A stretch of 64,000 nt of DNA, taken from Bacillota bacterium (GTDB taxonomy: Bacteria > Bacillota_C > Negativicutes > JAEYSJ01). Below are positions 11,262 through 63,104 of this stretch, piece after piece. Numbering within the stretch: the first letter of the stretch is position 1; every line of letters begins with the position of its first letter. The translations under genes were made by a program, and so were the position numbers. A model generated the notes under the pieces. That model did not search any database. It saw nothing but the letters and a program-made list of their open reading frames with translations, and had not been told where the DNA came from. The DNA lies in assembly GCA_023434855.1 (NCBI GenBank), contig JAEYSJ010000073.1, positions 1 to 64,000 of the forward strand, read 5' to 3'.

Positions 11262-11330
11262 AGCAAATAAAATAAACAAGGCAATCGAATTGCTTACGCA
11301 CTCGATTGCCTCCGGTTTACCGGTCAACAA
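11262..11330 (-). promoter_or_regulatory. Attenuator leader copy 1 (larE)
   Basis: GUUGA, stem CCGGU/ACCGG, then AGGC, which begins a terminator (AGGCAAUCGA ... UCGAUUGCCUU) followed by a U-rich run. It is about 150 bases upstream of the small reading frame and larE. Confidence 0.8.
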
Positions 11331-11380
11331 TTAAATTCACCAAATTGCTCAAATTTGAAGCATTTTTCCTTCTAAGTTAG

Positions 11381-11409
11381 AAGGTAGCACATTTACCTTG
11401 TAAAGTCAA
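11381..11409 (-). promoter_or_regulatory. Sigma-A promoter of larE unit
   Basis: TTGACT (11404-11409), 17-base spacer, TACCTT (11381-11386), read on the minus strand, upstream of leader copy 1. Confidence 0.55.
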
Positions 11410-11442
11410 TATATTTCTGCATTTTTTCTTCCCTTTTCTAAT

Positions 11443-11556
11443 CCACAGGTTGAGCTACGGCAACGCTTGGGTATCGATGACCGTTTGTTGCGCTTGTCTG
11501 TCGGCATTGAAAATGAAGAGGATATCATTGCCGATCTATCACAGGCTCTGGCCTAA
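11443..11556 (+). pseudogene. C-terminal remnant of a Cys/Met-metabolism PLP enzyme
   Basis: The plus-strand frame ending at TAA 11554-11556 encodes about 37 residues matching the C-terminal signature of cystathionine gamma-synthase/lyase or O-acetylhomoserine sulfhydrylase (RQRLGIDD, RLSVGIE, then a DIIADL segment). Nothing upstream codes for the rest. It is a decayed trans-sulfuration gene, left just upstream of the methyltransferase operon promoter. Confidence 0.65.
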
Positions 11557-11580
11557 TAAAACTACCGAATAAAATATTGC

Positions 11581-11610
11581 TTGACATCTACCAGATAATT
11601 ATGGCAAAAT
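11581..11610 (+). promoter_or_regulatory. Promoter of methyltransferase-RACo operon
   Basis: TTGACA (11581-11586), 18-base spacer, CAAAAT (11605-11610), about 30 bases before leader copy 2. Confidence 0.5.
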
Positions 11611-11639
11611 GATTAAAACCTTATTATTTCCTATTAAGC

Positions 11640-11700
11640 GGCTGATCAGAAAACTGAAGGCCACAGAAGTTTATCCAAACTTCTGTGGCCTTTTTTATTT
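11640..11700 (+). promoter_or_regulatory. Attenuator leader copy 2 (methyltransferase-RACo operon)
   Basis: GCUGA (11641-11645), stem UCAG/CUGA with an AAAA loop, AGGC (11658-11661), then a strong terminator (GGCCACAGAAGUUU pairing with AAACUUCUGUGGCC) and a U-run. One of two copies on the plus strand, and the cleanest example. Confidence 0.85.
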
Positions 11701-11768
11701 TCGCAAAATCAGATCATAAAAAGAAGAATATTTGTGAGGAAGAAATCCCCATTTACAGGAGGCAATAC

Positions 11769-12848
11769 ATGATGATAATTGATGGCATGACCCCCGTTGA
11801 ACGCTTTGCGGCCTACGGTCGGGGAGAAAAAATTGACCGTCTCCCCTGCGTACCCATTGTGGGCAATACTGCCGCCCGGGTAATTAACGTCAAAGTTTCT
11901 GAGCTTTCGCTTGATGGCGCGTTGCTGGCCAAAGCCCAAATTGCAGCCTACCGCCGTTTTAAGTATGATGTCATTCGCATTTTTACCGATCTCTATGTCC
12001 AGGCCGAAGCCATGGGCGCCAAAGTACGGTATCCGGACGACGAAACTGCCTATCTGGAATGTCCGGCAATTAATGAAATCTCTGAAATCAATCGGTTACA
12101 GCCTGCCGACCCTTATCGTGACGGCAACCTGCCCCGTCACCTTGAAGCGCTGCGTATTGTCCTGGACGCTGTGGGCAAGGAAGTGGCTGTGACCAGCGCA
12201 ATTACCTGCCCCTTTACCAATGCGGCTTTCTTGATTGGAACAGAGGAACTTGTCCGGCTAGTAGGGAAGAATCCGGAAGCTGTTCACCGTCTATGCGCAG
12301 TATCGCTGGAAACAAACCTGAATTATGCAAAAGCTATTATTGATGCCGGCGGTTCACCCAGTCTCACTGATGCCATGTCTTCTTCCACCATCATCAGTCC
12401 CAAACAATTCAAAGAATTTGCCTTTCCCTACCTGCAAAAATTGATTGCCTATATTCATTCCCGGGGTAAAGCAGTGACGCTGCATATCTGCGGCAAAACC
12501 AGCAAAATATGGGATCTGATGGTTGAAGCCGGTGCTGATTGCATCAGCATCGATAACGCCGCCAATTTGCTGGAAGCCAAACAAAAAGTCGGACACAGGG
12601 TCCGCCTCATGGGGAACGTAAAACCTGCTGAGATCATGCTGCAAGGCACACCTGACGATGTGCGCCATGCGGTCATTGATTGTGTTCGGCAAGCCTGTGA
12701 TAATCCTAAAGGCTATATTGTTGCCTCAGGATGCAGCCTGCCTACTGAAACCCCGTTTGCCAATATTGATGCTATGCTTAACACTGTGCGGGAAATCGGC
12801 TATCCCGTTGATCCGGCACAGCTGGAGAAATTAGCATATCAATTCTAA
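11769..12848 (+). CDS. MtaA/CmuA-type methyltransferase (uroporphyrinogen decarboxylase fold)
   Basis: A 359-residue protein of the UroD/MtaA/CmuA family, which moves methyl groups between a corrinoid protein and a thiol or tetrahydrofolate. Zinc-ligand positions are visible: His239 and Cys241 (LHICG) and Cys322 (SGCSLPTE). The ATG at 11769 follows ACAGGAGG; the frame extends to 11685 through the leader but that part is untranslated. It heads a plus-strand operon with a second paralogue, a RACo-like activator and an ABC importer. The operon has no corrinoid protein, the nearest being at 60562-61215. Confidence 0.75.
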   Translation: MMIIDGMTPVERFAAYGRGEKIDRLPCVPIVGNTAARVINVKVSELSLDGALLAKAQIAAYRRFKYDVIRIFTDLYVQAEAMGAKVRYPDDETAYLECPAINEISEINRLQPADPYRDGNLPRHLEALRIVLDAVGKEVAVTSAITCPFTNAAFLIGTEELVRLVGKNPEAVHRLCAVSLETNLNYAKAIIDAGGSPSLTDAMSSSTIISPKQFKEFAFPYLQKLIAYIHSRGKAVTLHICGKTSKIWDLMVEAGADCISIDNAANLLEAKQKVGHRVRLMGNVKPAEIMLQGTPDDVRHAVIDCVRQACDNPKGYIVASGCSLPTETPFANIDAMLNTVREIGYPVDPAQLEKLAYQF

Positions 12849-12863
12849 TGGAGGTATATCCGC

Positions 12864-13910
12864 ATGAATGGCTTAAACCCTAAAGAGCGCCTGCTCAAAG
12901 TACTCTGCAAAGAATCTGTAGACAGACCACCTGTCATCTGCCCCGGTGGCATGATGAACGCCGCTGTCGTCGATGTCATGAACGCCAGTGGCCACACCCT
13001 GCCGGCCGCCCATAGCGACGCGGCAATGATGGCGGCGCTTGCCGCTGCCGTACATCAATATACCGGTTTTGAAAATCTGGGAATTCCCTTCTGCATGACG
13101 GCAGAAGCGGAAGTTTTGGGCAGTACCGTTGATTGCGGTACAATTTCCTGTGAACCCAAAATTGTTAAAGAAATATTTTCATCCGCGGCCGACGCTTCGT
13201 TTAAGGATATAGACGCAATGCTGAACTCCGGCAGAATTCAAGCTGTTGCCAAAGCAGCGCAGCTGCTGGCGGCGCAATACCCTGCTGTTCCGGTGGCCGG
13301 CAATTTAACCGGTCCCGTCAGTGCGGCAGCTTCAATCATTGATCCTATGCGTTTTTTAAAAGACCTGCGCAAAAATTCCGCGGCTTCGCATCGTGTAATG
13401 GACTATGTCACCGCTTTTTTGATTGCCTTCGCCACTTTGCTCATTGACAACGGCGTAACACTAATTTCTATTGCCGACCCAACTGCCACAGGTGAAATAC
13501 TCGGCCCGAAAATATTTAACGAGTATGCCCTTACGTATTTAAACAAGCTCATTGATGCCATTCATGCTCATAAATCCCCTGATGGCCATAACATTCCGGT
13601 GATTGTTCATATCTGCGGTGACATGAATGCCGTAAAACAGCTAATTCCCGCCATCAAAGCTGATGCCATCAGTACAGACGCAGTCGTTAACCTGCGGCAG
13701 CTAAAGGAAGAATTTCCCGGACTCGTTACCATGGGGAATCTCAGTACCTATCTGTTGGAGTTCGGCCCAACTGACAAAATAATTAGCCAAACCAAACGCC
13801 TGGCGGCTGATGGTATTAACATCATATCCCCCGCCTGCGGTTTGAGTACCTCCACTGCTATCCAACACATCCAGGCGATGACTGATGCTGTAAAAAGCGG
13901 AAAGGAGTGA
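12864..13910 (+). CDS. MtaA/CmuA-type methyltransferase, second copy
   Basis: A 348-residue paralogue of the preceding gene, from which it is separated by 15 bp. Zinc-ligand candidates are His249 and Cys251 (VHICGD) and Cys325 (PACGLS). The N-terminal third, with a PVICPGGMMN segment, differs from its neighbour, so the two may act on different partners, for example one on the substrate side and one on the folate or coenzyme side. The ATG follows TGGAGG. The next gene begins with GTG four bases after this stop. Confidence 0.75.
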   Translation: MNGLNPKERLLKVLCKESVDRPPVICPGGMMNAAVVDVMNASGHTLPAAHSDAAMMAALAAAVHQYTGFENLGIPFCMTAEAEVLGSTVDCGTISCEPKIVKEIFSSAADASFKDIDAMLNSGRIQAVAKAAQLLAAQYPAVPVAGNLTGPVSAAASIIDPMRFLKDLRKNSAASHRVMDYVTAFLIAFATLLIDNGVTLISIADPTATGEILGPKIFNEYALTYLNKLIDAIHAHKSPDGHNIPVIVHICGDMNAVKQLIPAIKADAISTDAVVNLRQLKEEFPGLVTMGNLSTYLLEFGPTDKIISQTKRLAADGINIISPACGLSTSTAIQHIQAMTDAVKSGKE

Positions 13911-13914
13911 AATT

Positions 13915-15621
13915 GTGGCTTTAGTTCGTTTTTTGAACAGTCAGGCTGATGCTGCCGCTCAGTCCTCGGACAGCGAGATCCAAGTTCCGTTTGGAACTAC
14001 TATTTTAGAAGCAGCCCGGGCCGCCGGCATACTTATCGAGTCCCCGTGCAACTGTGCCGGAACTTGTGGCAAATGCAAAGTACAGGTAGCTGCGCAATCC
14101 TTACCTTATATCATTTATAAAGCCAATACGGAAGAACAACTTCTGTCCCAAAGTGAAATCAGCCAAGGTATTGTTTTGGCCTGCCGCACTGAAATCCAGG
14201 GAGACATTGACGTCACGCTCATCCACCGCCGCGACAACAAGGATGTACAAATTCTCAGCGATGGCCTTAACCTGGATGTACAACTGGACAGCTTTATCAA
14301 AAAACAATACCTGCCCGACTGCCGGGAAACGCTGGTGCTGGCCGGCGGCGAGCTTTTAGCGCGGGAAACAGGTGATACCACGGAAAGAAATTACGGCATG
14401 GTTGTAGACATTGGTACTACAACACTAGTGCTATCCTTGCTAAACCTGAATACCGGCCGGGAGCTTGCCGCCGTCTCAGCTCTTAATCCCCAAAGCCTGT
14501 ACGCCCAGGATGTCCTGTCGCGCATAAATTTTGCTGCAAAAGAGACCGGCTTATCAGTTATGTATACCGGCATAATTGATGCTATCAATGCCATGATTGA
14601 AGAAGCACTGACGAAAACAGGTATCAGTTCCGGCAACATTTATGATGTGGTATTCAGCGGTAATACCTGCATGCTGCACCTTGCCGTGAATACAAACCCG
14701 GCTCCACTAGGAAAATACCCCTACACACCGGTCATATACGGCGGAAATCGGATTGCAGCAAGTGAGCACAATCTCAATGTCGCTCCCTGCGCCCAGCTAT
14801 ACTTACCGCCAATCATCTCCGCCTACGTGGGAGCGGATATTACCTCAGGGATTCTCGCCGCCGACCTACAGCATTTGGAAGGTACTACACTGTTTGTCGA
14901 TATCGGAACTAATGGCGAAATGGCATTGGCGGTTGATGGACAGCTCACCGCCACTTCTACAGCCGCCGGGCCAGCCTTTGAAGGCATGAACATTGCCTGC
15001 GGCATGCGGGCGGCGCCGGGAGCAATAGAAAAATTCCAAATCAAGGGTAATAATAGTGTCTTTATTAAAACTATCGGCAACGAAGCAGCTGCCGGTATTT
15101 GCGGCAGCGGTCTGGTGGATATTGTTGGAGAACTGGCTGCTCATAAGATTATTGGTACAAACGGTAAATTTGCTTCAGCAAGTGTTCTGGAATTTCCACT
15201 ACTTACCGCTAGAATGGCAAAAATTGATGATAAAACTATTTTCCGGTTACAAAACAACATATACCTGTCACAGAAAGACGTCCGCCAGGTACAACTGGCT
15301 AAAGGAGCCATCCGGGCAGGTATTGAAAGCCTGCTGGCAGCAAAACAACTCAATGCTAACCAGGTAGACCGCGTATATATTGCCGGTTCCTTTGGCTACC
15401 ATCTGAATGCCGCCAGCCTCATTCACATCGGCCTGCTGCCTGAAGCATTCCGGGACAAGATCAGTTTCCTTGGCAACACATCCAAAACTGGCGGGCAGGC
15501 TTTTTTATTAAACCAGGCGGCCAGAAGTCAAATGGCTGATTTGGTTAAAACAGTAGAAGTGCTGGAGCTGGCAACAACCAATGATTTTGATAAGTTATTT
15601 GTCAAGTGCCTCAATTTCTAG
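13915..15621 (+). CDS. Reductive activator of corrinoid proteins (RACo-like)
   Basis: A 568-residue ASKHA-type ATPase with an N-terminal plant-type ferredoxin domain. Cys45, Cys51, Cys54 and Cys90 fit a [2Fe-2S] site (C-x5-C-x2-C...C). The actin-like core starts at VVDIGTTT (about 162), with a second phosphate loop FVDIGTNGE (about 325) and the adenosine motif IAGSFG near the C-terminus. Such proteins reduce inactive Co(II) corrinoids with ATP. The start is GTG with AAAGGAG five bases upstream. Its presence supports corrinoid-dependent methyl transfer by this operon together with a corrinoid protein encoded elsewhere. Confidence 0.85.
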   Translation: MALVRFLNSQADAAAQSSDSEIQVPFGTTILEAARAAGILIESPCNCAGTCGKCKVQVAAQSLPYIIYKANTEEQLLSQSEISQGIVLACRTEIQGDIDVTLIHRRDNKDVQILSDGLNLDVQLDSFIKKQYLPDCRETLVLAGGELLARETGDTTERNYGMVVDIGTTTLVLSLLNLNTGRELAAVSALNPQSLYAQDVLSRINFAAKETGLSVMYTGIIDAINAMIEEALTKTGISSGNIYDVVFSGNTCMLHLAVNTNPAPLGKYPYTPVIYGGNRIAASEHNLNVAPCAQLYLPPIISAYVGADITSGILAADLQHLEGTTLFVDIGTNGEMALAVDGQLTATSTAAGPAFEGMNIACGMRAAPGAIEKFQIKGNNSVFIKTIGNEAAAGICGSGLVDIVGELAAHKIIGTNGKFASASVLEFPLLTARMAKIDDKTIFRLQNNIYLSQKDVRQVQLAKGAIRAGIESLLAAKQLNANQVDRVYIAGSFGYHLNAASLIHIGLLPEAFRDKISFLGNTSKTGGQAFLLNQAARSQMADLVKTVEVLELATTNDFDKLFVKCLNF

Positions 15622-15657
15622 AGAACTGCTTGAATTTTAAATTAGGGAGGGTATATC

Positions 15658-16737
15658 ATGACTCGACGAATCATTGCCGTACTATGCCTGATTTCTTTGT
15701 TTTCCCTTGTTCTTATAGGATGCAGTCAGAATTCCGAGAAAAAGTCGGTGGCTCCATCTGCGACAGCCCAGGCGCCGACGGACAAAATCAAGTTTAATAT
15801 CGGCTACTTGCCGGCTGTAGGACATGTGTTGTATTTTATCGCTAAAGAAAAAGGCTTTTATGAACAGGAAGGCCTGGATGTGGAACTCTTTCAATTTACC
15901 AATTCAGGCGAAGGCTTGAACGCGATTAAAAGCGGTAAATTGGACGCAGGTTCCTTTGGCACTGCAGCGCCGCAAACTTTCATTGCCAAAGGAACACCTT
16001 TTGTGAACATTGGCGGAATGCAAAGCGAAGGCCATGCGGTTGTCACCAAACCGGAAAATGCCGATCAGTTCAAAAACCCTCAAAGCTTTGTCGGCAAAAA
16101 AATTGCCACCGTTCGCTTAGCCACTGGTGATGCTGTTTGGCGGTCGGCCCTCTCTAAAGCAGGGATTGACTGGAAAACACAGGTGACCATTCAGGAACTG
16201 GATTCACCGGCTGCCGTACTGGAAGCTGTTAAAAAAGGATCAGCCGATGCCGGACTGGTTTGGGTACCATTCTCCGAAATGGCTGAGCAGCAGGGTTTGA
16301 AAATTGCCGCTTGGTCGTCGGATTATATGGAAAACCATGTCTGCTGCCGGATAGTTGCCTTACAAGATCGTCTCCAAGCTAATAAAGAAGCATATATCCG
16401 TTTTTCCCGGGCCCAGATCCGTGCTTATGATTTTTACCTTAACAACCAGGCGGAAACTGTAGACATTCTAAGTAAATACGTAAAACTTGATAAGGATTTG
16501 CTGAAAAAGGCTGCCTATAGCGGTCACATTCACAGTATACCTGATCCGGATAAAAAACGTTTTGCTGCTTTCTGGGAAGCTATGAAAAATGCCGGCTACC
16601 TGCAAAGTGATCTGGACATCAATAATTTTGTTAATACGGATATTTATAAAGAAGCGTTGACCGGACTGCGTGGACGTGATCCGCAAAACCCTACCTATAT
16701 TGAGTTAGAGAAAGATTTTGCTATAAATGACCTGTAA
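15658..16737 (+). CDS. ABC importer substrate-binding lipoprotein (sulfonate/nitrate/taurine type)
   Basis: A 359-residue binding protein of the SsuA/TauA/NMT1 group. A lipoprotein signal ends at LIGC (Cys22). The ligand-domain opening FNIGYLPAVGH and the segment GSFGTAAPQ are typical. It is followed at once by ATPase and permease genes, giving a full importer. The operon context (methyltransferases, RACo, attenuator leader) suggests a methylated sulfur or sulfonate compound, but the substrate cannot be read from sequence. Confidence 0.8.
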   Translation: MTRRIIAVLCLISLFSLVLIGCSQNSEKKSVAPSATAQAPTDKIKFNIGYLPAVGHVLYFIAKEKGFYEQEGLDVELFQFTNSGEGLNAIKSGKLDAGSFGTAAPQTFIAKGTPFVNIGGMQSEGHAVVTKPENADQFKNPQSFVGKKIATVRLATGDAVWRSALSKAGIDWKTQVTIQELDSPAAVLEAVKKGSADAGLVWVPFSEMAEQQGLKIAAWSSDYMENHVCCRIVALQDRLQANKEAYIRFSRAQIRAYDFYLNNQAETVDILSKYVKLDKDLLKKAAYSGHIHSIPDPDKKRFAAFWEAMKNAGYLQSDLDINNFVNTDIYKEALTGLRGRDPQNPTYIELEKDFAINDL

Positions 16738-16758
16738 TGAACTAAGGGGGTACGCCAT

Positions 16759-17559
16759 ATGCTGAACCTTGAAAATGTTTCACTGACCTATCCCGGCGAT
16801 GACCGCCCGGCTGTCACTGACATGTCCCTAAATATTGCGGAAGGCGAATTTATCGCTGTCGTCGGTCCCAGCGGCTGCGGCAAAAGTTCGACTGTCAGCC
16901 TCCTGGCGGGCCTGCTTCCACCCAGCGCAGGCAGTATTAATTTAAATGGGGCAGCCATCCGGGGGCCGGGACCGGACCGGGCTGTTGTTTTTCAGGATTA
17001 CTCACTGTTTCCCTGGATGACTGCTGTGGAAAACATTATTTTTGCGTTAAAGCAGCGTAAACAATCAGGTGTTTCAAGAGACGTACGGAAAGAAGCTCTC
17101 CGCTACCTGGATTTAGTTGGCTTGTCTGATGCGAAAAATAAGTATCCCGGAGAGTTGTCCGGCGGTATGCGGCAGAGAGTAGCTATCGCCCGCGCCTTCG
17201 CCCTGGATGCTCCGGTATATCTTATGGATGAACCCTTCGGCGCGGTAGATGCAAAAAACCGTGTTTCCCTCCAGGATTTATTGCTGCGGCTCTGGATGGG
17301 AACCGGCCGGCAAAAAACGATTTTTCTGGTAACTCACGATATTGATGAAGCCTTATATCTGGCTGACCGGATTGTAGTGTTTACACCCGGGCCGGGACGC
17401 ATCCGCCAGATTGTTACCGTCCCGTTTCCCCGGCCAAGACGTCGGTATTTTCTCGTACAAGAACCGGCCTATATCGGATTACGCAACGAAATCATGACAT
17501 TGCTGCAACATGAAATTCTGGAAGAGATACAAAAAGTTGAAGGAGGCGCCGGCATATGA
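16759..17559 (+). CDS. ABC importer ATPase (SsuB/TauB type)
   Basis: 266 residues. Walker A GPSGCGKS (36-43), Q-loop in VVFQDYSLFPW, signature LSGGMRQRVAIARA and Walker B VYLMDEP are all intact. The D-loop and switch histidine (TLVTHD-like, here LVTHDIDEA) follow. The gene starts 21 bp after the binding-protein gene and overlaps the permease gene by 4 bp (ATGA). Confidence 0.85.
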   Translation: MLNLENVSLTYPGDDRPAVTDMSLNIAEGEFIAVVGPSGCGKSSTVSLLAGLLPPSAGSINLNGAAIRGPGPDRAVVFQDYSLFPWMTAVENIIFALKQRKQSGVSRDVRKEALRYLDLVGLSDAKNKYPGELSGGMRQRVAIARAFALDAPVYLMDEPFGAVDAKNRVSLQDLLLRLWMGTGRQKTIFLVTHDIDEALYLADRIVVFTPGPGRIRQIVTVPFPRPRRRYFLVQEPAYIGLRNEIMTLLQHEILEEIQKVEGGAGI

Positions 17560-18305
17560 CGCAAGCTGTCCGCGATCGTCTGTTCTTAGCCGCTTTGTTT
17601 CTTATCTGCTGGCAAGCAGCTACTGCCTGGTTCGCAATCCTGGATCCGCTGCTCTTCCCTGAGCCCCGGAAAATACTTGCTATTCTGGTTGAAGACCGGG
17701 CCGTCTTTGTCAAAAGCTTGATCAGTTCGTTCAATTTACTGTTTTTCGGCTATTTTTTGGCGGTAGTCTCTGCCATACCGCTTGGCCTGATAGTTGGCTG
17801 GCGCCGCCGTTTACACCTGGCCCTTGAACCGGCAACCAACCTGCTTGGCCCCATCCCCCCTATTGTCTATATCCCTTATGCCATTGCCATTTTACCAACT
17901 TTCACTCTCTCCTCCATCTTTGTTATTTTTGTCGGCGCTTTTTGGCCGTTGTTTATTAACACCGTTTCAGGAGTGCAAGCTGTAGAAAAAGGCTTAATTG
18001 ACTCCGCCAGAACGCTGGGCGTCAGCCAATGGACCATGTTAACCAAGATTCTCCTGCCCGGAGCTATGCCTCATATCCTGACAGGCGGCACAGTCAGCCT
18101 GGTATTGGCTTTCATCCTGCTTACGGCGGCGGAAATGATTGGCGCTACCAGCGGGCTAGGCTGGTATGTAAAATATTTTTCCGATTTTGCCGACTACGCC
18201 CGCGTGGTAGCCGGCATTCTCGTTATCGGGTTTGTCGTATTAGCACTCATGACATTCTATCGGCGCCTGTCCGCCTATTTGCTCCGCTGGAAGAAAACTA
18301 TGTAA
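17556..18305 (+). CDS. ABC importer permease (SsuC/TauC type)
   Basis: 249 residues with about six membrane spans. The EAA-type cytoplasmic loop is visible (GLIDSARTLGVSQWTMLTKILLP). The start overlaps the ATPase stop. It is the last gene of the plus-strand operon and is followed by a perfect palindromic terminator shared with the convergent methyltransferase gene. Confidence 0.85.
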   Translation: MTQAVRDRLFLAALFLICWQAATAWFAILDPLLFPEPRKILAILVEDRAVFVKSLISSFNLLFFGYFLAVVSAIPLGLIVGWRRRLHLALEPATNLLGPIPPIVYIPYAIAILPTFTLSSIFVIFVGAFWPLFINTVSGVQAVEKGLIDSARTLGVSQWTMLTKILLPGAMPHILTGGTVSLVLAFILLTAAEMIGATSGLGWYVKYFSDFADYARVVAGILVIGFVVLALMTFYRRLSAYLLRWKKTM

Positions 18306-18320: not shown

Positions 18321-18358
18321 AAGAGAAAACCCGGTTCAATTGAACCGGGTTTTCTCTT
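18321..18358. terminator. Bidirectional palindromic terminator
   Basis: A perfect 38-bp palindrome (AAGAGAAAACCCGGTTCAA plus its complement) between two convergent operons. GC-rich inner arms and A/T flanks give U-runs in both directions. Confidence 0.85.
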
Positions 18359-19389
18359 CATGCCGGCAGTTTATTGACTGTGTTAAGAAAAGCCTTTACG
18401 TTTTCCAGCGGTACACCGGGAGGAATATCGCATCCTGGCATTAACACATAATTGTGATACCTGCCAACCTGGTCTATACATTCTTGTGCGGCCTTGGTCA
18501 CTTGCTCCGGGGTTCCCTCCTTCAATAGCACAGGATTAACATTACCGGCAAAGGCTACCTTGCCGTCTAAAATCTTTTGCGCCAGCCTTAAGTCCACCTT
18601 GTAGTCCACTGATAAAAAATCCACCGACAGGTCAGATACCATCGCCAAACGGTTTTCATGAAGCTTACCGCAGATATGCAAAGTGACCAATGCCCCCCTA
18701 TCTTTGATCCTTCTGTTGATTTTTGCCAGGTATGGTGCAACAAATTCTGCAAAATGCTGATAGGAGATTAGGTCCCCCGAAGCGGTCGGCTCAGCAATCG
18801 ATAGAATATTTGCTCCCAGATCAATCGCCGGAGCCAGATATCGAAAACATAGTTCAGTTGTGAAATCCAAGAGCGCATGAATTGCCGCTTTATCTTTATA
18901 TAAGCCACTCATCAGCCTTTCCACACCGAATAATTGCCCGGCCAGTGTAAACGGCCCCCAGCTCGATGTCCCCACTAGAAATTCATTACCAACAGCTGCG
19001 CTAACCTCGGCGATAATCCTGCGTAAAGCAATTATCCACTCATGTTCATCCACTTGATCCAGATTTATTTGATCAATGACTGCGACATTATCTAATAAGG
19101 GCTCCAAAACATCAATGTTGCCCTGTGGCCTGAATTTAATTTTTCCGCCCAAAACGTGCACCAGTAAATTGTGGTAGCCGGAACCAGGCCATACTATGTC
19201 CGAACCAATCTGACGGTTAATTTCCACAATCACAGGGGCAGCCAGTTCCGGTTTATCCAGAATTTCTTTGAGAGTCAGGCCCTTTTGCCGAAACGTCCAA
19301 GTCCCCCCGGACAAAAGCGCTGAGGGCAGCCTGGAATCTTTGGGTGACTGCCTATTGATAGCCTGTAACACGATTTCCCGGGATGTCAT
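18358..19389 (-). CDS. MtaA/CmuA-type methyltransferase linked to nitrogenase-like pair A
   Basis: A 343-residue UroD-fold methyltransferase. Zinc-ligand candidates are His and Cys in LHICGKL and a late Cys in MPGCDIP. It is the third gene of the unit behind pair A, 14 bp downstream of the NifK-like gene, so it is almost certainly cotranscribed with it. A methyltransferase in the same transcript as a nitrogenase-like enzyme suggests that methylated substrates or products are handled. The proximal ATG at 19389 follows a GGGGGTAGG stretch. Confidence 0.75.
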   Translation of the reverse strand: MTSREIVLQAINRQSPKDSRLPSALLSGGTWTFRQKGLTLKEILDKPELAAPVIVEINRQIGSDIVWPGSGYHNLLVHVLGGKIKFRPQGNIDVLEPLLDNVAVIDQINLDQVDEHEWIIALRRIIAEVSAAVGNEFLVGTSSWGPFTLAGQLFGVERLMSGLYKDKAAIHALLDFTTELCFRYLAPAIDLGANILSIAEPTASGDLISYQHFAEFVAPYLAKINRRIKDRGALVTLHICGKLHENRLAMVSDLSVDFLSVDYKVDLRLAQKILDGKVAFAGNVNPVLLKEGTPEQVTKAAQECIDQVGRYHNYVLMPGCDIPPGVPLENVKAFLNTVNKLPA

Positions 19390-19403
19390 CTCGCACCTAC
19401 CCC

Positions 19404-55573: not shown

Positions 55574-56449
55574 TTAAATCGCTGCAGCCTGACTGCGCAC
55601 TTCGCCTGTTTCCAATGCCAGCAAATGATCAGCCCACTGGGCGGCCCATGCTCTTAATTCGGCAGTATCCAGTGGAGATGGAACTTTTGATTCAGTGGTG
55701 TCAACTATTTTTTGCGCCAGACGGCTGTAAATTTTCGCCTGTTCTGAATTAGGCGCTGATTCCACCGTTGTTTTGCCTTGCAGTTCGGCTTGCGTTACCG
55801 TGACTGAGCGGGGAATATATTCTACCACCCGGGTGCTTGTTCTCTGTACGAAGTCATCCACGATTTCTTTAGCATAGGGAGCATTAATAGAATTTGCAAT
55901 TAAACCGCCAAGCAAAGCACCGCCAGAATTTGAATATTTTTTAATCCCTTTAAACAAGTTATTGGCCGCATAAATGGCCATAAAGTCGGCCGAAGATACG
56001 GTAAACACGTGCTCAGCAATCCCTTCACGGATAGGTACGGCAAAGCCCCCGCATACTACGTCCCCCAAAACATCATAGATGATTACATCCAGATCCAATT
56101 CTTCATATACTTTCAACTGTTTTAGCAGTTGGACGGCAGTGATGATACCCCGGCCGGCACAGCCCACACCCGGCGCCGGTCCGCCGGCCTCTACGCAGTA
56201 AACACCGTTAAAGCCTTTGAAAATTACGTCTTCTGCTTTTACCTGTGTCTTTTCCCGCATAGTATCCAAAACGGTGGGAATATACGTACCACCTCTGAGG
56301 GTATTTGTCGAATCGGCTTTAGGATCGCAGCCAAACTGCATAACTTTCAGCCCTAATCTGGATAAAGCCGCACTGATATTGGAAGTAGTAGTTGATTTAC
56401 CAATTCCACCTTTACCGTAAATTGCAATTTGCTTAATTTTTTTGCTCAT
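55574..56449 (-). CDS. Nitrogenase reductase-like protein (NifH-like)
   Basis: 291 residues, full NifH length. Walker A GKGGIGKS (12-19), switch DPKADS (42-47), and the [4Fe-4S] ligands Cys97 (GVGCAGRG, with Arg100) and Cys133 (DVVCGGF) are intact. It would pass electrons with ATP to component 1. It is the only NifH-like gene in the window for four DK-like pairs. The ATG follows AGGAGGAG; it has its own promoter and leader copy 15. Confidence 0.9.
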
Positions 56450-56472: not shown

Positions 56473-56549
56473 AAAATAAAAAGACCAGGAAGACATTTCC
56501 CTTAAAAAGAAACATCTTACTGGCCTTTAGCTTTTTTACTAATCAGCAC
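56473..56549 (-). promoter_or_regulatory. Attenuator leader copy 15 (nifH-like)
   Basis: GCUGA, stem UUAG/CUAA, AGGC, terminator (CAGUAAGAUGU with ACAUCUUCCUG) and U5. It ends about 25 bases before the ATG. Confidence 0.85.
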
Positions 56550-56668: not shown

Positions 56669-57097
56669 CTATATTCCGTCCCCATGAGCTCCTTCCATTT
56701 TATTCTCATTGACACGGCGCTTCTCCGTAGTTTCAATTTGTTCTACTTTTCCATTATTTAAACGAATTACTAGTTGCCCATACTGAATTTTCTTGAGTTC
56801 CTGCACAATTTTATCCTGAAGTGGATGAGTAGTTGTTGGCTTGCCGTATTTTATATAACCGGTTGATTTGTTTTTATTGGTAATAATAAATTTTTCAGCC
56901 TTTTCAATCTTTACGACAAAGCCATCCTGTATGCCGGCAATTAAAGATCCGTTGTCGGCCGTAAATAGAAAATGATTGATGATTTCCAGTATTTGGGGTA
57001 ATGGCTGCCTGACCGGATTGCTCCTCCCTTCGCCACGTTCTGACTGAAACTCAACCGGTCTGTTTGCATTTTTTCTGTTGGCAAAGGACTCTGCCAT
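56669..57097 (-). CDS. YezD/DUF2292-like protein with two repeat units
   Basis: 142 residues. The C-terminal segment IQYGQLVIRLNNGKVEQIETTEK matches the YezD (DUF2292) pattern of small proteins often found beside sulfur-assimilation genes. A similar unit with weaker resemblance occurs at about residues 37-72 (NGSLIAGIQDGFVVKIEK), so the protein looks like a duplicated domain. The ATG follows AGGAGGAGG. Two tandem leader copies precede it. Function unknown; a nucleic-acid-binding or regulatory role is possible. Confidence 0.65.
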   Translation of the reverse strand: MAESFANRKNANRPVEFQSERGEGRSNPVRQPLPQILEIINHFLFTADNGSLIAGIQDGFVVKIEKAEKFIITNKNKSTGYIKYGKPTTTHPLQDKIVQELKKIQYGQLVIRLNNGKVEQIETTEKRRVNENKMEGAHGDGI

Positions 57098-57198
57098 AAA
57101 AACTCCTCCTCCTGTTAAAAAAACTAGTTACGCCGGGACAAGGCAACAGCGGCAGTCATCAGCTTTCCTATGTCTTGGAAATTAATAATTTCAATAAT

Positions 57199-57261
57199 GC
57201 AAAAGGCAAAGGTTGTTCCCGCTGGAACCGCCTTTGCCTTCAGTTTATTCCTGATCAGCCG
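57199..57261 (-). promoter_or_regulatory. Attenuator leader copy 16 (yezD-like, promoter-distal)
   Basis: GCUGA, stem UCAG/CUGA, AGGC, terminator (AAAGGCGGUUCC with GGAACAACCUUU, closed by GCCUUUU). About 100 bases before the gene. Confidence 0.85.
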
Positions 57262-57282
57262 TGCGAAAACATCATATTAAAT

Positions 57283-57355
57283 TAAAAAGGCTAAAACCCT
57301 CTTCTTTACAAAAATAAAGAAGAAAACTTTTAGCCTTCAGTTATCTGATTAGCTG
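57283..57355 (-). promoter_or_regulatory. Attenuator leader copy 17 (yezD-like, promoter-proximal)
   Basis: Variant GCUAA, stem UCAG/CUGA with an AUAA loop, AGGC, terminator (UAAAAGUUUUCUUCUUU with AAAGAAGAGGGUUUUA) and U5. First of a tandem pair. Confidence 0.85.
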
Positions 57356-57629: not shown

Positions 57630-58937
57630 TTAGAATTTAAGTTGGATGCTGGTGCAAACGCTTGTATTATATTTGATAAACCCATCATAAGATTTTACAT
57701 TAGTAACGGTTATCGCATATTTAGCATTTTTGGCAAAGACGTAATTGAAGCCGGCACCAAATCCCTTAACACCTGTTGCGCTATTAAAAGTGCATAATGT
57801 AGTAATGCCGCCATCAACTGCATTTGCTCCGACTTTCCGGTAATCTACATACGCACCCCATGAGCCGACTTTATTATAGTCAGAACCCTTATAAGCAAGT
57901 GAGTAATATTCCCCCTTATTTTGGTCTAAATTATCTCGATAGGTATTTTTTACATAATCGCCAACCACGGTCCAATCCGGGGTGAGTTTATAGGATACGC
58001 CAATAAAGCTTTGTTTGTAAGGGTAATTATCAGTATTGCTTGATAATATACCGGTAGTTAGGCGAAACTTCTCATCTGGATCCCAAAATAATGTGCCAAA
58101 TTTTACATTTTTGGCATCGGCAGCTGTATTATCGGTATATTCATAGCCGTTAATGTCTGCCAGAGCGGCAAATCCGCTGATTTTTCCATTTTTGTAACTT
58201 ATGCGGACGTTATCAACCCCGCCTACCGGTGTTGTATCTGCCACTAAACCGCTCTGACTTAAAAATAAAGGCTCACGTCCAGCTGTCAGGTCAGCACCCG
58301 GGAAGAGATTCTTAAACTTAAAATAGGCGCTGCCGAAGTTAAGATCTGTTGTGCTGGATTTTGTTGTTCCATAAGTTGGAGAAGAAGGATTGCCATCATA
58401 ATAACTAAGTTTATGGTATCCATTAATAGCACCTACGAAATCGATTTTATCATTTATGGACGATGTGAGGTTTAGCTGTACAAGCTCTTCCAACCTGTGA
58501 GATGACGTATTAGAAGTAGGAGAACTAGTGCCAGTCAACCAGCAGTTTTGCATGTAACGCAGTCTGGCATAACCGGAAAACTTCACACTGGAAGCATTTT
58601 GCTCCAACTTGTCTAATCGCACTCCGATCGTGTTAAGTTCAGTTGCAAATTCCGCCGATAACTTGTCGATAAGCTCTTTTTGTCCAGCATTGGCTTTGCT
58701 GTACCTTTCAATAGCGCGGGCCGTGATCGTTGCGAATTCATATCGTGTTAGATATCTATCACCCCGAAACGTACCATCGCCATATCCATCGATAATGCCA
58801 GCTTTAGCAAGTTGACTCACAGCATCGTAAGCCCAGTGCTTAGCAGGCACATCTGTAAAATTATTTGCTGCAAAAGCCGTACCGCTAATTCCTGATAAGA
58901 AAACGAGTATAATTGTCAAAAGGGTAAATTTCCTCAT
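57630..58937 (-). CDS. Outer-membrane porin with S-layer homology domain
   Basis: 435 residues. Signal peptide (about 1-23, ending AFAA), one SLH domain (FTDVPAKHWAYDAVSQLAKAG, then TRYEFATITARAIERY; about 25-80), a short coiled linker (about 85-110), then a beta-barrel of alternating strands ending in a terminal aromatic residue (SIQLKF). This architecture is characteristic of Negativicutes, where the SLH domain tethers the porin to peptidoglycan-linked polyamines. The start at 58937 follows AAGGAGGAG. Two tandem leader copies place it in the same regulon as the sulfur genes, suggesting it admits their substrates. Confidence 0.85.
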   Translation of the reverse strand: MRKFTLLTIILVFLSGISGTAFAANNFTDVPAKHWAYDAVSQLAKAGIIDGYGDGTFRGDRYLTRYEFATITARAIERYSKANAGQKELIDKLSAEFATELNTIGVRLDKLEQNASSVKFSGYARLRYMQNCWLTGTSSPTSNTSSHRLEELVQLNLTSSINDKIDFVGAINGYHKLSYYDGNPSSPTYGTTKSSTTDLNFGSAYFKFKNLFPGADLTAGREPLFLSQSGLVADTTPVGGVDNVRISYKNGKISGFAALADINGYEYTDNTAADAKNVKFGTLFWDPDEKFRLTTGILSSNTDNYPYKQSFIGVSYKLTPDWTVVGDYVKNTYRDNLDQNKGEYYSLAYKGSDYNKVGSWGAYVDYRKVGANAVDGGITTLCTFNSATGVKGFGAGFNYVFAKNAKYAITVTNVKSYDGFIKYNTSVCTSIQLKF

Positions 58938-59189
58938 CGATGCTCCTCCTTGAATAATACTATGTTTCATGAATGTCTCCCCGCAAATATTTTTATTGCC
59001 TATTTGCCTGAACCAGGAAAGAATTTAATTAAGTATCCTTGTTTCCTCAGGTTCTTCCGGTCCATAGGATATATATCTATCACTTACGGAAAGAACTATT
59101 GGTAGAGATGGGAATGGCGCCTGCTTCCCCCAATCGTCCCCGCTGTGTAGATTACAAAGTGTGACAGTAATTGTGTATCAATGATACAA

Positions 59190-59254
59190 ATATAAGGCTA
59201 ATGATTCCTTAGCTTACTAAGGTCATTAGCCTTCATCCTGCTCATGATCAGCTG
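59190..59254 (-). promoter_or_regulatory. Attenuator leader copy 18 (porin, promoter-distal)
   Basis: GCUGA, stem UCAU/AUGA, AGGC, terminator (UAAUGACCUUAG with CUAAGGAAUCAUUA, closed by GCCUUA). About 250 bases before the porin start; 58960-59190 holds no other recognisable element. Confidence 0.85.
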
Positions 59255-59283
59255 TACCCATCAATTCAATTATTTAGAAATTA

Positions 59284-59343
59284 GAAAAGGCTAATGACCT
59301 AATCAATAGGTTCATTAGCCTTCATATTTTTTATGATCAGCTC
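59284..59343 (-). promoter_or_regulatory. Attenuator leader copy 19 (porin, promoter-proximal)
   Basis: GCUGA, stem UCAUA/UAUGA with an A5 loop, AGGC, terminator (UAAUGAACCUA with UAGGUCAUUA, closed by GCCUUUU). It is very similar to copy 18, so the pair is a local duplication. Confidence 0.85.
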
Positions 59344-59447: not shown

Positions 59448-60518
59448 TTAATATGCGCCATAGAATTTAGCAGCATCCACCATAGCAACTGCGCTAAGCA
59501 AATTGCCGTTCGGCGGAAACTCGCATCCGGTCGCCAAAATGAATCCTGCCCCGTTGTTGTGGAACAGTTCTATCTGCCCACGGCAGTCATCCAGTATTTC
59601 TTGCCGCGTCATCACTAAACCGGTATTAGCCGGATGAGAATAGCCGATTGTAACTACTTTTTTGCCCCATTTTTGCGCATGCTCTTCCCACGATTTGCAG
59701 CCATAAGCCGGATAGGCCACCGAGATAGCGGCTGGGTTCATCCATTTGATAACTTCTTCAAAATATACGCCATTGCCGCAATTATGTACTGTTACAATGC
59801 CACCGGCGCCGCGAATGGCATCGGCAATACGCTGGCAAAAAGGACCTTCAAAGGTTTCCCACTGTTTCTTGCTGAGTATCGTTGGGGAAGAATACAGCGG
59901 ATCGATGCAGACAGAATGAGCTCCGGCTTCTACTTGCGCTTTGGCAAATTCGACCAGCACCTCGGTAATTATTTCCACAGCCTGCAATACTTCCTGTGGA
60001 TGGCGGATCAGGTCTTTAAACAATTCCTTATGTCCTCGCATCTGGGACAATACCCCTAACGGCCCATAAATAAATCCCAATATCGCCACTTCTTTGCCTT
60101 TGGCTTCAGCAAGACCGGCGCAAATATCAATTATCGATTTCATTCGCTTCGTTTTTCTGGGGTTTACCAGCTCAACTTTACTATATTCTTTGGCATTATT
60201 TATCAACGGGTTGTTAAAATTCGGATAAGCTGTACTGTTTTTAGGATAGATAACTTCTTGTCCAAAATCAGCGGCTTCTACCGAAAGATCCACCAATGTG
60301 ACAAACGCATCAAATCCCAGCAATTCCTGTGATGCCAGCAAACTTTTAGTTGCCAGTTCCGCATCTGTAGACCACTTATCGTAGGTTATGCCCAACACCC
60401 GGTGGGAAGCGCCGCAAAATAACGGAGTGGCGGGAATTCTATCTGCTTTCTTAAACTGTAACGCCAAACCGACCCTTTCTAACGAGGTCAGTTGATCCTT
60501 TTTCTGGGTCAGACTCAT
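59448..60518 (-). CDS. MtaA/CmuA-type methyltransferase of corrinoid operon
   Basis: 356 residues, UroD fold. Zinc-ligand candidates: His and Cys in VHNCGNGVYF and Cys in ATGCEFPPN. The N-terminal segment ATPLFCGASHRVLG differs from the other three paralogues in the window. The ATG at 60518 follows ATGGAGG. It is the last gene after the DUF1638 and corrinoid protein genes, so it probably methylates or demethylates that corrinoid protein. Confidence 0.8.
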   Translation of the reverse strand: MSLTQKKDQLTSLERVGLALQFKKADRIPATPLFCGASHRVLGITYDKWSTDAELATKSLLASQELLGFDAFVTLVDLSVEAADFGQEVIYPKNSTAYPNFNNPLINNAKEYSKVELVNPRKTKRMKSIIDICAGLAEAKGKEVAILGFIYGPLGVLSQMRGHKELFKDLIRHPQEVLQAVEIITEVLVEFAKAQVEAGAHSVCIDPLYSSPTILSKKQWETFEGPFCQRIADAIRGAGGIVTVHNCGNGVYFEEVIKWMNPAAISVAYPAYGCKSWEEHAQKWGKKVVTIGYSHPANTGLVMTRQEILDDCRGQIELFHNNGAGFILATGCEFPPNGNLLSAVAMVDAAKFYGAY

Positions 60519-60561
60519 TGTCTTACCTCCATCCAACATTTTATTCACTTTTAATTATTAA

Positions 60562-61215
60562 TTAAACCGCAACTCCTAACAGTTTGCGGGAAAGCCGCAC
60601 TGCGTCCGCGGCATTCACGGCATAACCGTCTGCTCCTATTTTATCAGCGAAACTCTGGGAAATCGGCCCGCCGCCAATAATGATCTTATAGCGTTCTTTA
60701 ATATTCTCTTCCTGTAATATGCGGATAACTGCATCCATGCCATCCATAGTGGTTGTCATCAGTGTTGCCAAGGCAATAATATCGGCCTGAACTTCTTTAG
60801 CCTTTTCTACAAATTGCTGTGGTGGAATATCCCGGCCAAGGTCAAAGACTTCGAAGCCTGAGGTCTCCAGCATTATTTTTACTAAATTCTTGCCAATATC
60901 ATGGGTGTCGCCTTCAACCACCCCGATAACCACTTTACGTTTTTGTTCTTGTTCATTTACTTTTATATGTGGTTTTAATGTGTCAAGGCCGGCATACATC
61001 GCGTCTGAACACAACAGTAACTCCGGAATGAAATACTCCTCTTCCTCAAACAGTTTCCCGGCTCTTTCCATGCCGGCAGAAAGTCCTTGCTCAATCGCCT
61101 GATAGGCATCAATTTGCTGGGCGATAGTTTCATTGGCAAGTATTACAACCTCGTCTTCGTCCATCGCCACTACCGCATCAGCCAGTTTTTTAAATAGTTC
61201 TTCCTTAATTGACAT
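60562..61215 (-). CDS. Methyltransferase corrinoid-binding protein (MtaC/MtbC-type)
   Basis: 217 residues: an N-terminal helical cap (about 1-85) and a B12-binding domain with the cobalt-ligand motif D103-x-H105-x-x-G108 (EGDTHDIGKN), then LATLMTTTMDGM and IGGGPIS. It carries the methyl group on a base-off corrinoid. It is the only corrinoid protein in the window and overlaps the DUF1638 gene by 11 bp. The RACo-like protein encoded at 13915-15621 is its likely activator. Confidence 0.9.
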   Translation of the reverse strand: MSIKEELFKKLADAVVAMDEDEVVILANETIAQQIDAYQAIEQGLSAGMERAGKLFEEEEYFIPELLLCSDAMYAGLDTLKPHIKVNEQEQKRKVVIGVVEGDTHDIGKNLVKIMLETSGFEVFDLGRDIPPQQFVEKAKEVQADIIALATLMTTTMDGMDAVIRILQEENIKERYKIIIGGGPISQSFADKIGADGYAVNAADAVRLSRKLLGVAV

Positions 61216-61924
61216 CTAAAAGTCCTCCTTGTTTTTCATTATTGGTTTTATCTTTATTTGCTATTTCCCCCTGCATAAAATGTTCTTCCTTAACAATTTG
61301 CAAGGGAGGAACATGGATAAAATCAGCCTCGTCCCAAGGGCCGTTAACAATCTTTTGCAGATAAGTGTTATCACCTGTCATGATATGATGGCTCAAATTC
61401 AGTAAAGCAGCTATCTCAAGTGATTGCTGCAGACAGACGTCCAGGGTGCTGCAACCGGTTTTGATGAACAGCACTTTCTTATAACTGTCATACATCCTGG
61501 CGAGAATACTCCGTGCTTTTTTCTCTCCATACGTGTCGCAAATCCGCCGGTGTTCGGAAAGAATATTTTTTTCGGTGATCATCCACCCACAAGTTAAATA
61601 AAATGTGCCTCTTTCTTCACGGCTGTAACGCTCGTACGCTTGTTTCGAACCAAGCAGAATGGCAATACAATCATGCACCCGGGGGATAATCAACGGACTG
61701 TCGGCTGCTTTTAAATCCCTTGCCGCACCGCCGCACAGACCAAACGCCAAAACAACTTTATTATAGCCTGTCGAACGATGGAGTATATTCTGCAGTTCAT
61801 TGTGCAGCTTTTGAGGATGCAGGTGAAGACCCATGGAGATAAACTCATACTCAACTTGTTCATGTGGCGTTATTGCCAGCAACTCTTCTTTCATAACTTC
61901 ACAGGCGATGATTTTAACTGTCAT
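61205..61924 (-). CDS. DUF1638-like protein of corrinoid methyltransferase operon
   Basis: 239 residues. The sequence (IIACEVMKEELLAI, then VLAFGLCGGAARDL, then PRVHDCIAILLGSK and YLTCGWM) fits DUF1638, a family found beside corrinoid methyltransferases in methanogens and acetogens. Conserved Cys, Asp and His residues suggest a metal or corrinoid site. The ATG at 61924 follows GGGAGG; the longer frame to 61960 runs into the leader. First gene of the unit under leader copy 20. Function unknown. Confidence 0.75.
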   Translation of the reverse strand: MTVKIIACEVMKEELLAITPHEQVEYEFISMGLHLHPQKLHNELQNILHRSTGYNKVVLAFGLCGGAARDLKAADSPLIIPRVHDCIAILLGSKQAYERYSREERGTFYLTCGWMITEKNILSEHRRICDTYGEKKARSILARMYDSYKKVLFIKTGCSTLDVCLQQSLEIAALLNLSHHIMTGDNTYLQKIVNGPWDEADFIHVPPLQIVKEEHFMQGEIANKDKTNNEKQGGLLDVN

Positions 61925-61941
61925 GCAGACCTCCCTGTTTA

Positions 61942-62009
61942 TAAAAAAAACAGAGGCCAAGTCTCACCTCACGGGGGAATACTTAGCCTCCGGTTTTTCC
62001 GGTCAACTA
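61942..62009 (-). promoter_or_regulatory. Attenuator leader copy 20 (DUF1638-corrinoid unit)
   Basis: GUUGA, stem CCGG/CCGG, AGGC, terminator (AGGCUAAGU with ACUUGGCCU) and U8. It directly abuts the ribosome site. No clear promoter lies between it and the cysK stop at 62077, so read-through from cysK is possible. Confidence 0.8.
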
Positions 62010-62076
62010 ATAGAGTGTGTTTCAAAAACGCACTTTCCTTACTATTCTTTTAAACTGTTACAAAATATATTTATCA

Positions 62077-63012
62077 TTAATTCTCCTGGAAAAGAACGGT
62101 AGATAAATATCTCTCACCTGTATCAGGCAGTAACGCAACAATGGTTTTACCGCTATTTTCCGGTCTCTTGGCCAGTTCAGTGGCGGCAAAGGCGGCCGCG
62201 CCGCTGGATATACCCACAAGTAAACCTTCAAATTTAGCGATGTCCCTGGAAGTTGCAAAAGCATCTTCATTCTTTACTTTAATTATCTCGTCAATAATAT
62301 TTACATTCAAAACTTCCGGCACAAAGCCTGCTCCGATACCCTGAATTTTGTGGGGCCCAGTTTTCCCGCCAGATAACACCGGTGAATCAAACGGCTCAAC
62401 AGCAATAATTTTTACACCCGGCTTTCTGGCTTTCAGTACTTCACCTACGCCGGTCAATGTCCCGCCTGTGCCCACACCGGAAACAAATATGTCTACCTGC
62501 CCATCGGTGTCACGCCATATTTCTTCCGCAGTTGTTTTCCTGTGTATTTCCGGATTCGCAGGATTTTTAAACTGCTGCGGTATAAAAGAATTTGCCGTTT
62601 CTGCGGCTATTTCATCTGCTTTCTTAATTGCGCCTTTCATGCCTTCCGTTCCGGGGGTAAGAACCAGTTGGGCACCCAAGGCCTTTAACAAGCTGCGCCG
62701 TTCAATGCTCATTGTGTCAGGCATGGTGAGAATTAATTGGTATCCCTTGGCTGCGGCGACAAAGGCCAGAGCAATACCGGTGTTGCCACTGGTAGGCTCA
62801 ATTATGACTGTATTTTGGTTGATAAGGCCTTTATCTTCAGCATCCTTGATCATGGCATAGCCAATCCTGTCCTTGACACTGCTGAGAGGATTAAAATACT
62901 CCAGTTTTGCAATCAGCTTTGCATTTAGCTCCTGCTTTTTGTTATAATTAGCAAGTTCAAGCAGAGGGGTATTCCCAATAAGTTCTGTCAAACTCTTAGC
63001 AACATTAGACAT
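62077..63012 (-). CDS. cysK: Cysteine synthase A, copy 2
   Basis: 311 residues, a close paralogue of the gene at 46056-46985. PLP lysine is Lys47 (SSVKDR), [10 protein letters not shown] and GTGGTLTG are intact. It has its own promoter and leader copy 21. Two cysteine synthases under the same type of attenuator support a sulfur-responsive regulon. Confidence 0.9.
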
Positions 63013-63039
63013 TTTTCATCTCTCCTTTAGAATAATTTA

Positions 63040-63104
63040 AAAAATAAAAGGCTAAACCGACTCCTGCTGGAAGTCTGTTTAGCCTTTGGTTATCCAATCA
63101 GCTA
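63040..63104 (-). promoter_or_regulatory. Attenuator leader copy 21 (cysK copy 2)
   Basis: GCUGA, stem UUGG/CCAA with an AUAA loop, AGGC, terminator (UAAACAGACU with AGUCGGUUUA, closed by GCCUUUU). Confidence 0.85.

Follow-up and report, generated by a model that had tools for sequence, protein, structure and literature searches.

A 64,000-nucleotide stretch of DNA from a Bacillota bacterium of the class Negativicutes (positions 1 to 64,000 of contig JAEYSJ010000073.1, assembly GCA_023434855.1; hereafter the window) holds 21 copies of a short RNA leader element that overlaps an intrinsic terminator and appears to define a sulfur regulon. Our preferred explanation, to which we give a probability of roughly three in four, is that proteins of the DUF2292 family are RNA-binding antiterminators of sulfur starvation, which would stabilise a small GCU:GGC hairpin within the element and so strip the terminator of its base. 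We infer the binding and its polarity, and with them the protein dependence of antitermination, from co-occurrence, linkage and covariation. A broader reading, somewhat less secure and in our judgement still probable, is that DUF2292 is an ancient antiterminator family of Bacillota, Deltaproteobacteria and Pseudomonadota that recognises a hairpin with a GA/A internal loop, relays the low S-adenosylmethionine (SAM) signal of a riboswitch in trans to an entire sulfur-starvation regulon, and acts both on terminators and on hairpins that block Shine-Dalgarno (SD) sequences.

The leader element

The element consists of GCUGA, a short stem that is mostly YYRG/CYRR, a loop of variable length, AGGC, and an intrinsic terminator at whose base the same AGGC pairs with GCCU or a GU-tolerant variant ahead of a U-run. 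A strict script requiring GYUGA, a stem of at least 4 bp, AGGC and a terminator beginning at AGGC finds 15 matches in the window, or 18 if one mismatch is allowed, as compared with means of 0.025 and 0.125 in 40 block-shuffled windows and none in the reversed window. Twenty copies were found by eye and script, and one more (57282-57353) was added by a covariance model, R1. The count of 21 given in an earlier note on this DNA is reproduced exactly by R1, which places all copies between 11273 and 63102 at E <= 7e-8; after these comes a match at 2.2e-4, which is one of the copies read on the opposite strand. Fifteen window copies are among the 57 sequences on which R1 was trained and match by construction, leaving six outside the training set (34431, 45124, 50210, 55516, 57353 and 59252, by their upper coordinates).

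The earlier note had described the consensus as G(C/U)UGA, a 4-7 bp stem and AGGC. AGGC is indeed present in all 21 copies; the 5' motif departs to ACUGA in copy 44560, ACUGG in 50210 and GCUAA in 57353, and the upper stem of copy 45124 has just 2 bp. Copies follow gene orientation, as claimed, and three tandem pairs stand ahead of metNIQ, the DUF2292 gene and the gene of an SLH-domain protein. As for the promoters said to lie close upstream, promoter-like sequences (hexamer score >= 9) are present within 140 nt of 16 of the 21 copies in a raw count without shuffle background; two tandem partners share one promoter-like sequence each.

Covariation supports the fold. Across the 57 sequences all four pairs of the upper stem vary in both strands of the stem while pairing is kept in 100% of cells, the upper pairs of the terminator vary freely, and the covariation score of stem and terminator is matched by 0 of 500 shuffles and by no slid version of the alignment. 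Less decisive measures were the number of pairs changed on both sides (matched by 31 of 500 shuffles) and of further pair types (7 of 500). The rows of this alignment had been selected for having a stem. When the stem requirement is dropped, 180 of 203 sites have a stem of at least 4 bp, 129 of them TCAG/CTGA, the very version used to fetch 119 loci. Without those 129 sites a stem is still found in 51 of 74, in 15 other combinations; four control motifs, with 38 sites between them, gave 0.

The terminator belongs to the minimum-energy fold of 18 of the 21 window copies by script, the other three having been flagged for reading. AGGC is common to the hairpin and the terminator, with which the upper stem is compatible; only GCU:GGC competes with the terminator, at the pairs adjoining the U-run. 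Computed energies are -16 to -34 kcal/mol for the terminator region and -1.4 to -6.8 kcal/mol for the alternative hairpin, and termination is therefore the expected default. By its predicted structures the element is an attenuator of the intrinsic-terminator kind, in which a terminator ahead of the coding region and an alternative hairpin exclude each other. Because GGC must pair with the terminator too, the GCU:GGC lower pairs are nearly invariant in this Bacillota-type set; the antiterminator that the earlier note had drawn across a GA/A loop gains its covariation from related hairpins in Pseudomonadota, described below.

The window has no Rfam match above gathering score and no T-box match. 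At E <= 5 there are nine chance-like matches, two of them over copy 63102 at under 40% of gathering score, and a local Rfam scan gives one match over copy 57353 at half its gathering score. ANTAR targets comprise a pair of stem-loops whose hexanucleotide loops have A at position 1 and G at position 4. We rejected this class for the element, which is a single short hairpin whose loop length differs between copies; the earlier note, too, had recognised it as no known riboswitch, T-box, RAT or ANTAR target.

A scan using one genome per species and one stem version returned at least 119 stretches. Among the matches listed are Negativicutes (Pelosinus, Sporomusa, Propionispora and metagenome-assembled genomes, MAGs), Heliophilum, Deltaproteobacteria MAGs, and Bacillaceae and relatives (Priestia, Peribacillus, Lysinibacillus, Niallia, Kurthia). 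In 29 of the fetched genomes R1 counts between 1 and 53 copies each (E <= 0.01), with 53 in a member of the Negativicutes; these are lower bounds, the best candidates alone having been scored. Downstream genes were sampled at 102 sites; a usable frame was absent at 17 others, and duplicates and four weak loci were set aside. Frequent among their Pfam families are solute-binding proteins (18), CysK-type PALP enzymes (12), ABC ATPases (8), NMT1-like proteins (6), TauE (5), Cys/Met pyridoxal-phosphate enzymes (4), nitrogenase-like proteins (4), SDF symporters (3) and DUF2292 (3). The earlier note had suggested a covariance-model search of Negativicutes genomes; the element is found ahead of sulfur genes there and also far beyond that class. 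Script, covariation, R1 and downstream genes all agree with the earlier view of a functional leader that defines a sulfur regulon.

Co-occurrence and linkage with DUF2292

DUF2292 is a family of tiny uncharacterised proteins, known as YezD in Bacillus and OscA in Pseudomonas, of about 50 residues per domain. We compared its presence with that of a strong element (R1 E <= 1e-6) in two sets of genomes; all counts across genomes ignore kinship, as does the Fisher statistic given here. Among 150 genomes of the Peribacillus order, a strong element occurs in 55, all 55 of which have DUF2292, and in 0 of 84 genomes without it (Fisher 2.5e-30). Five of the 55 had already been picked by RNA pattern, and 50 are new. 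The Pelosinus class (Negativicutes; 120 genomes) repeats this: 54 of 54 element genomes have DUF2292 (22 already picked by RNA pattern, 32 new), and the element occurs in 0 of 58 genomes lacking the gene. Among the 104 genomes with a strong CysH match, the element is found in 54 of 64 with DUF2292 as against 0 of 40 without it, so that CysH, taken as a control, does not predict the element.

Genomes picked by RNA pattern alone also carry DUF2292, 29 of 29 in one set and 41 of 48 in the next; 39 further pattern loci are, judging from accession, apparently in the same assemblies. Of the seven pattern genomes without DUF2292, four (L023, L045, L059 and L092) score 16-29 bits with R1, compared to 41-54 bits for the other six loci scored, and are likely chance matches to the pattern, though L045 passes the script. 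Among 14 well-known control genomes, DUF2292 is present in Bacillus subtilis alone.

The two are also neighbours. In the Peribacillus order the element lies downstream of 44 of 81 DUF2292 genes on the same strand, at most 37 nt from the domain match in 40 cases and 163-190 nt from it in four. Linkage alone is insufficient to explain the co-occurrence, because 11 of the 55 element genomes have DUF2292 yet no listed element within 1 kb of its gene. In seven Bacillaceae-type loci (L120-L123, L125, L126, L129) the order is SAM riboswitch, DUF2292, element and a CysH-like frame, which coincides with a 3'-phosphoadenosine 5'-phosphosulfate (PAPS) reductase match in three of the seven genomes. Of 30 DUF2292 loci, 11 (L120-L126, L129, L133 and, in the Pelosinus class, L139 from Propionispora and L145) have a same-strand SAM riboswitch 92-384 nt upstream of the DUF2292 domain. 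The script finds an element downstream in nine of these 11; it is absent from L133, and in L145 there is just a hairpin that lacks a terminator. Other SAM riboswitches near DUF2292 are on the opposite strand in three loci and farther off or downstream in three more.

Two loci, L141 and L145, have an element-like hairpin without terminator between DUF2292 and the next frame, which we take to be metY-like. These hairpins may act at the level of the SD sequence.

The window gene (56669-57097, reverse strand) encodes a two-domain DUF2292-like protein, the candidate antiterminator, and lies behind two tandem elements (57282-57353, the GCUAA variant, R1 E 8.5e-11, followed by 57198-57259, 6.7e-13); no riboswitch was detected ahead of it. 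The protein passes the Pfam DUF2292 model PF10055 at 44.8 bits (cut-off 22; 9.5e-12 for the second domain). It falls under the cut-off of the NCBIfam OscA model NF033785 (26.9 bits vs 85, E 3.5e-6) and is thus a relative of OscA rather than an OscA equivalog. Each DUF2292 domain is predicted to fold as a helix and two strands (alpha-beta-beta; mean predicted local distance difference test, pLDDT, 72 for a single domain), and the AlphaFold2 model of the two-domain protein has a mean pLDDT of 70, about 87-93 inside the domain blocks, and a predicted template-modelling score of 0.58. An RNA target or mechanism for the family was not found in the literature searched, whose coverage excludes most preprints and subscription journals. 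The portion of PMC2996968 that cites Viti et al. 2009 presents OscA as a small protein of unknown function, encoded in one unit with sbp and chromate-induced, whose insertional disruption made Pseudomonas corrugata 28 chromate-susceptible; the title of Viti et al. 2009, as cited there, names a sulphur starvation response. The chromate sensitivity of the mutant, as given in that portion, fits an activator role of DUF2292.

Related hairpins in Pseudomonadota

OscA-family genes occur in 13 of 249 Pseudomonadota genomes, and two more loci from other searches bring the number of loci to 15. Twelve of these have, downstream of the gene, a hairpin with a GA/A (once GG/A) internal loop and a like upper stem, about 10 to 90 nt away where the gene end was read. 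The next gene behind the hairpin is in six loci what we presume to be an sbp-like gene. The lower stems of the hairpins differ and covary (GCCC:GGGC, AGCCC:GGGCU, CCGCA:UGUGG, UGCC:GGCA). Counted outward from the loop in 13 hairpins, the first pair is CG in 7, AU in 2, UA in 2, UG in 1 and unpaired in 1; the second is CG in 10 and unpaired in 3; the third is CG in 4, GC in 3, GU in 2 and unpaired in 4. The covariation score is matched by 0 of 500 shuffles. Four of the 13 hairpins lead, from the 3' arm of the lower stem, into a second hairpin that covers the SD sequence or start codon of the next gene, and these second hairpins are matched by 10, 2, 0 and 0 of 500 shuffles. From these comparisons it appears that the binding hairpin is constant and that the expression platform differs.

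In L153, L154, L155 and L157 a conserved mini open reading frame (MTALPHRYCSCQPRMRG and variants) follows right after the oscA hairpin, with an SD-like GGAG in the hairpin's 3' half. It is possibly a Cys-containing leader peptide.

Proposed mechanism

We propose that DUF2292 would accumulate when sulfur is short and dock on the GA/A internal loop between two short helices, clamping GCU-GA-YYRG-loop-CYRR-A-GGC. The clamped GGC would be kept from GCC, the terminator pairs adjoining the U-run would be lost, and RNA polymerase would read through. Where a SAM riboswitch precedes DUF2292, as in several Bacillaceae-type and two Negativicutes loci, the protein would pass on the low-SAM signal in trans, reaching operons that have no riboswitch of their own. 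The two tandem elements ahead of the window DUF2292 gene could give positive feedback, and in some Pseudomonadota the like hairpin may free an SD sequence rather than oppose a terminator.

If this is correct, the widespread OscA/YezD family, linked to sulfur starvation and chromate resistance, would acquire a molecular function, and a new RNA-protein regulatory pair, potentially in control of dozens of operons in each genome, would be common to distant phyla. A riboswitch signal would be relayed in trans via an antiterminator, and the pair would help to explain how clusters of nitrogenase-like methylthio-alkane reductases and methyltransferases are switched on in anaerobes.

The proposal has parallels among known systems. 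BglG, SacY and LicT are RNA-binding proteins that stabilise an internal-loop hairpin, the ribonucleic antiterminator (RAT), overlapping the 5' side of a terminator, with one kind of site serving several operons; the protein partner of the RAT carries a CAT RNA-binding domain. A protein-held hairpin overlapping a terminator and a site used by many operons would be common to both, whereas the GA/A loop, the variable 4-bp stem, the roughly 50 residues per domain and the response to sulfur rather than sugars set the present element apart. HutP of Bacillus is a small protein whose gene lies right before a terminator, which HutP overcomes so that the operon behind it is transcribed; DUF2292 resembles it in the position of its gene just ahead of a terminator and differs in protein family, site and signal, and in the up to 53 copies of the element per genome. 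SAM-I riboswitches (RF00162) likewise are terminator-bearing leaders of sulfur and methionine genes, although the element has no match to RF00162 or to the rest of Rfam. To OscA of Pseudomonas and YezD of Bacillus the window protein is related through their shared Pfam family.

Several observations weigh against a role of DUF2292 as antiterminator. In 44 of the 55 Peribacillus-order element genomes an element and a DUF2292 gene are no more than 1 kb apart, so joint inheritance accounts for part of the co-occurrence. The 1e-6 cut-off was chosen after the results had been seen, and genomes without DUF2292 lie just above it (1.7e-6 and 2.4e-6 in the Peribacillus order, 3.2e-6 in the Pelosinus class). 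At looser cut-offs the number of DUF2292-less genomes with matches rises to 2 at 1e-5, 7 at 1e-4, 16 at 1e-3 and 30 at 0.01 in the former set, and to 1 at 1e-5 and 4 at 1e-4 in the latter. Conversely, 11 of 66 and 8 of 62 genomes with DUF2292, respectively, have no element at 1e-6. Three of the pattern genomes, all MAGs (L029, L051 and L101), contain a strong element of 41-54 bits and show no DUF2292, for which MAG incompleteness is a possible cause. For 19 of the 30 DUF2292 loci, the 400 nt upstream contain no same-strand SAM riboswitch. In the Pseudomonadota alignment the weaker measures were matched by 23 (pairs changed on both sides) and 188 (further types) of 500 shuffles; L150, L151 and L162 lack the hairpin, the lower stems of L153-L155 are poor, and nine of the 13 sites have no significant SD-blocking hairpin. 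Comparison of the DUF2292 structure gave no significant match, a result that neither supports nor excludes RNA binding. Because each set included genomes already picked earlier and the cut-off was chosen post hoc, our confidence in the DUF2292 reading is slightly lowered.

Alternative explanations

The earlier note had allowed for binding by a protein or for a minimal ligand site. Of these the evidence favours a protein, with DUF2292 as the candidate. In one alternative, which we consider unlikely, the hairpin would be a tiny riboswitch that senses a sulfur metabolite, and DUF2292 just another, near-universal member of the regulon. Such a role would agree with a regulon rich in sulfur genes, with the linkage in 44 of 55 genomes and with DUF2292 genes that themselves follow the element, as in the window and in 3 of the 102 downstream genes. 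It is hard to reconcile with a site in which about nine bases are conserved and the stem varies, which offers little for a pocket, or with the Pseudomonadota hairpins, which keep mainly the internal loop and the fold. DUF2292 is moreover present without an adjoining listed element in 11 of 55 genomes, CysH, another frequent target, fails to predict the element, and some operons already have a SAM riboswitch ahead of DUF2292.

Less probable again is that another protein binds the hairpin and DUF2292 just co-occurs with it. DUF2292-family genes stand directly ahead of the hairpin in both Bacillota and Pseudomonadota, which argues against a bystander; on the other side, DUF2292/OscA and CysH are the only families that were tested across genomes, and DUF2292 has no structural match suggestive of RNA binding.

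We find it very improbable that DUF2292 binds the hairpin as a repressor, promoting termination or blocking translation. The site is a structure that excludes the terminator, DUF2292 behind a SAM riboswitch would be produced at low SAM, and oscA loss is described as harmful under chromate in the cited portion of PMC2996968. The direction of the effect, activation rather than repression, is nevertheless deduced, and the four Pseudomonadota loci with GGAG in the 3' half of the hairpin, just ahead of a small leader frame, would suit a repressor. Least credible of all are mobile or repetitive extragenic palindromic (REP)-like terminators of no regulatory role, since the copies, although many per genome and tandem in three places of the window, follow gene orientation, lie behind promoter-like sites, head sulfur genes in distant bacteria and have covarying stems.

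Genes behind the element in the window

All window copies are on the reverse strand except those at 11641-11697 and 36993-37057; R1 E values are given in brackets. Four nitrogenase-like D/K pairs follow the element: one with a methyltransferase at 18358-22239 (copy 22276-22343; 4.6e-10), one at 26988-29769 (29795-29855; 3.2e-9), one at 37121-39886 (36993-37057; 4.5e-13), and one with cysK and an SsuB-like ATPase at 45159-50050 (ACUGG variant, 50141-50210; 3.4e-8). A nifB-like gene with SsuCA-like transporter parts (50356-55440) lies behind the copy at 55461-55516 (1.1e-11), a nifH-like reductase gene (55574-56449) behind 56476-56547 (1.4e-10), and a NifX-like protein gene (44556-44981) behind the copy with the 2-bp stem (45067-45124; 6.1e-8). 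A second NifX-like protein is encoded together with an M20 dipeptidase (30129-31834) behind 31857-31916 (3.2e-12). Against the four D/K pairs, the window proteins scanned include one NifH-like reductase and one NifB-like protein, and several of the paralogous pairs may share the one reductase. PMC10418091 describes clusters of this sort under the name of type 1 mlp gene clusters and places MarHDK homologues in some of them.

The forward-strand copy at 11641-11697 (2.4e-16) precedes MtaA/CmuA-type methyltransferases, a corrinoid activase and an SsuABC-like transporter (11685-18305), and DUF1638, corrinoid and URO-D methyltransferase genes (59448-61960) follow the copy at 61948-62007 (2.5e-13). 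Tandem copies at 34486-34546 (first; 2.2e-10) and 34362-34431 (second; 1.6e-8) head metNIQ (31965-34340), and the ACUGA variant at 44491-44560 (1.9e-10) heads a metY-like gene (43162-44475). The second of two cysteine-synthase-like genes, of the PALP family (62077-63012), lies behind 63043-63102 (9.3e-13). A larE-like sulfur transferase gene (10253-11059, assigned by NCBIfam) follows 11273-11328 (1.5e-11), and a YeiH-like transporter gene (22736-24142, below the NCBIfam cut-off) follows 24158-24218 (8.9e-15).

The M20 dipeptidase has no evident sulfur role, nor have the DUF4418 protein, encoded with a permease-like protein (25032-26672) behind 26921-26974 (4.3e-11), and the SLH-domain protein (57630-58970), an unusual member of a sulfur regulon that lies behind two tandem copies (59282-59341, first, 1.6e-13; 59189-59252, second, 7e-8). 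A gene for an extracytoplasmic-function-type sigma factor (35690-36502) adjoins that of a QueG/RDH-like protein (34826-35644) and has no element ahead of it. Outside the window, the Calidifontibacillus locus L096 has behind its element an Rrf2-type regulator, presumably CymR-like judging from its start, and a CRISPR repeat array at the same locus (L096 5882-6524, 7010-7703).

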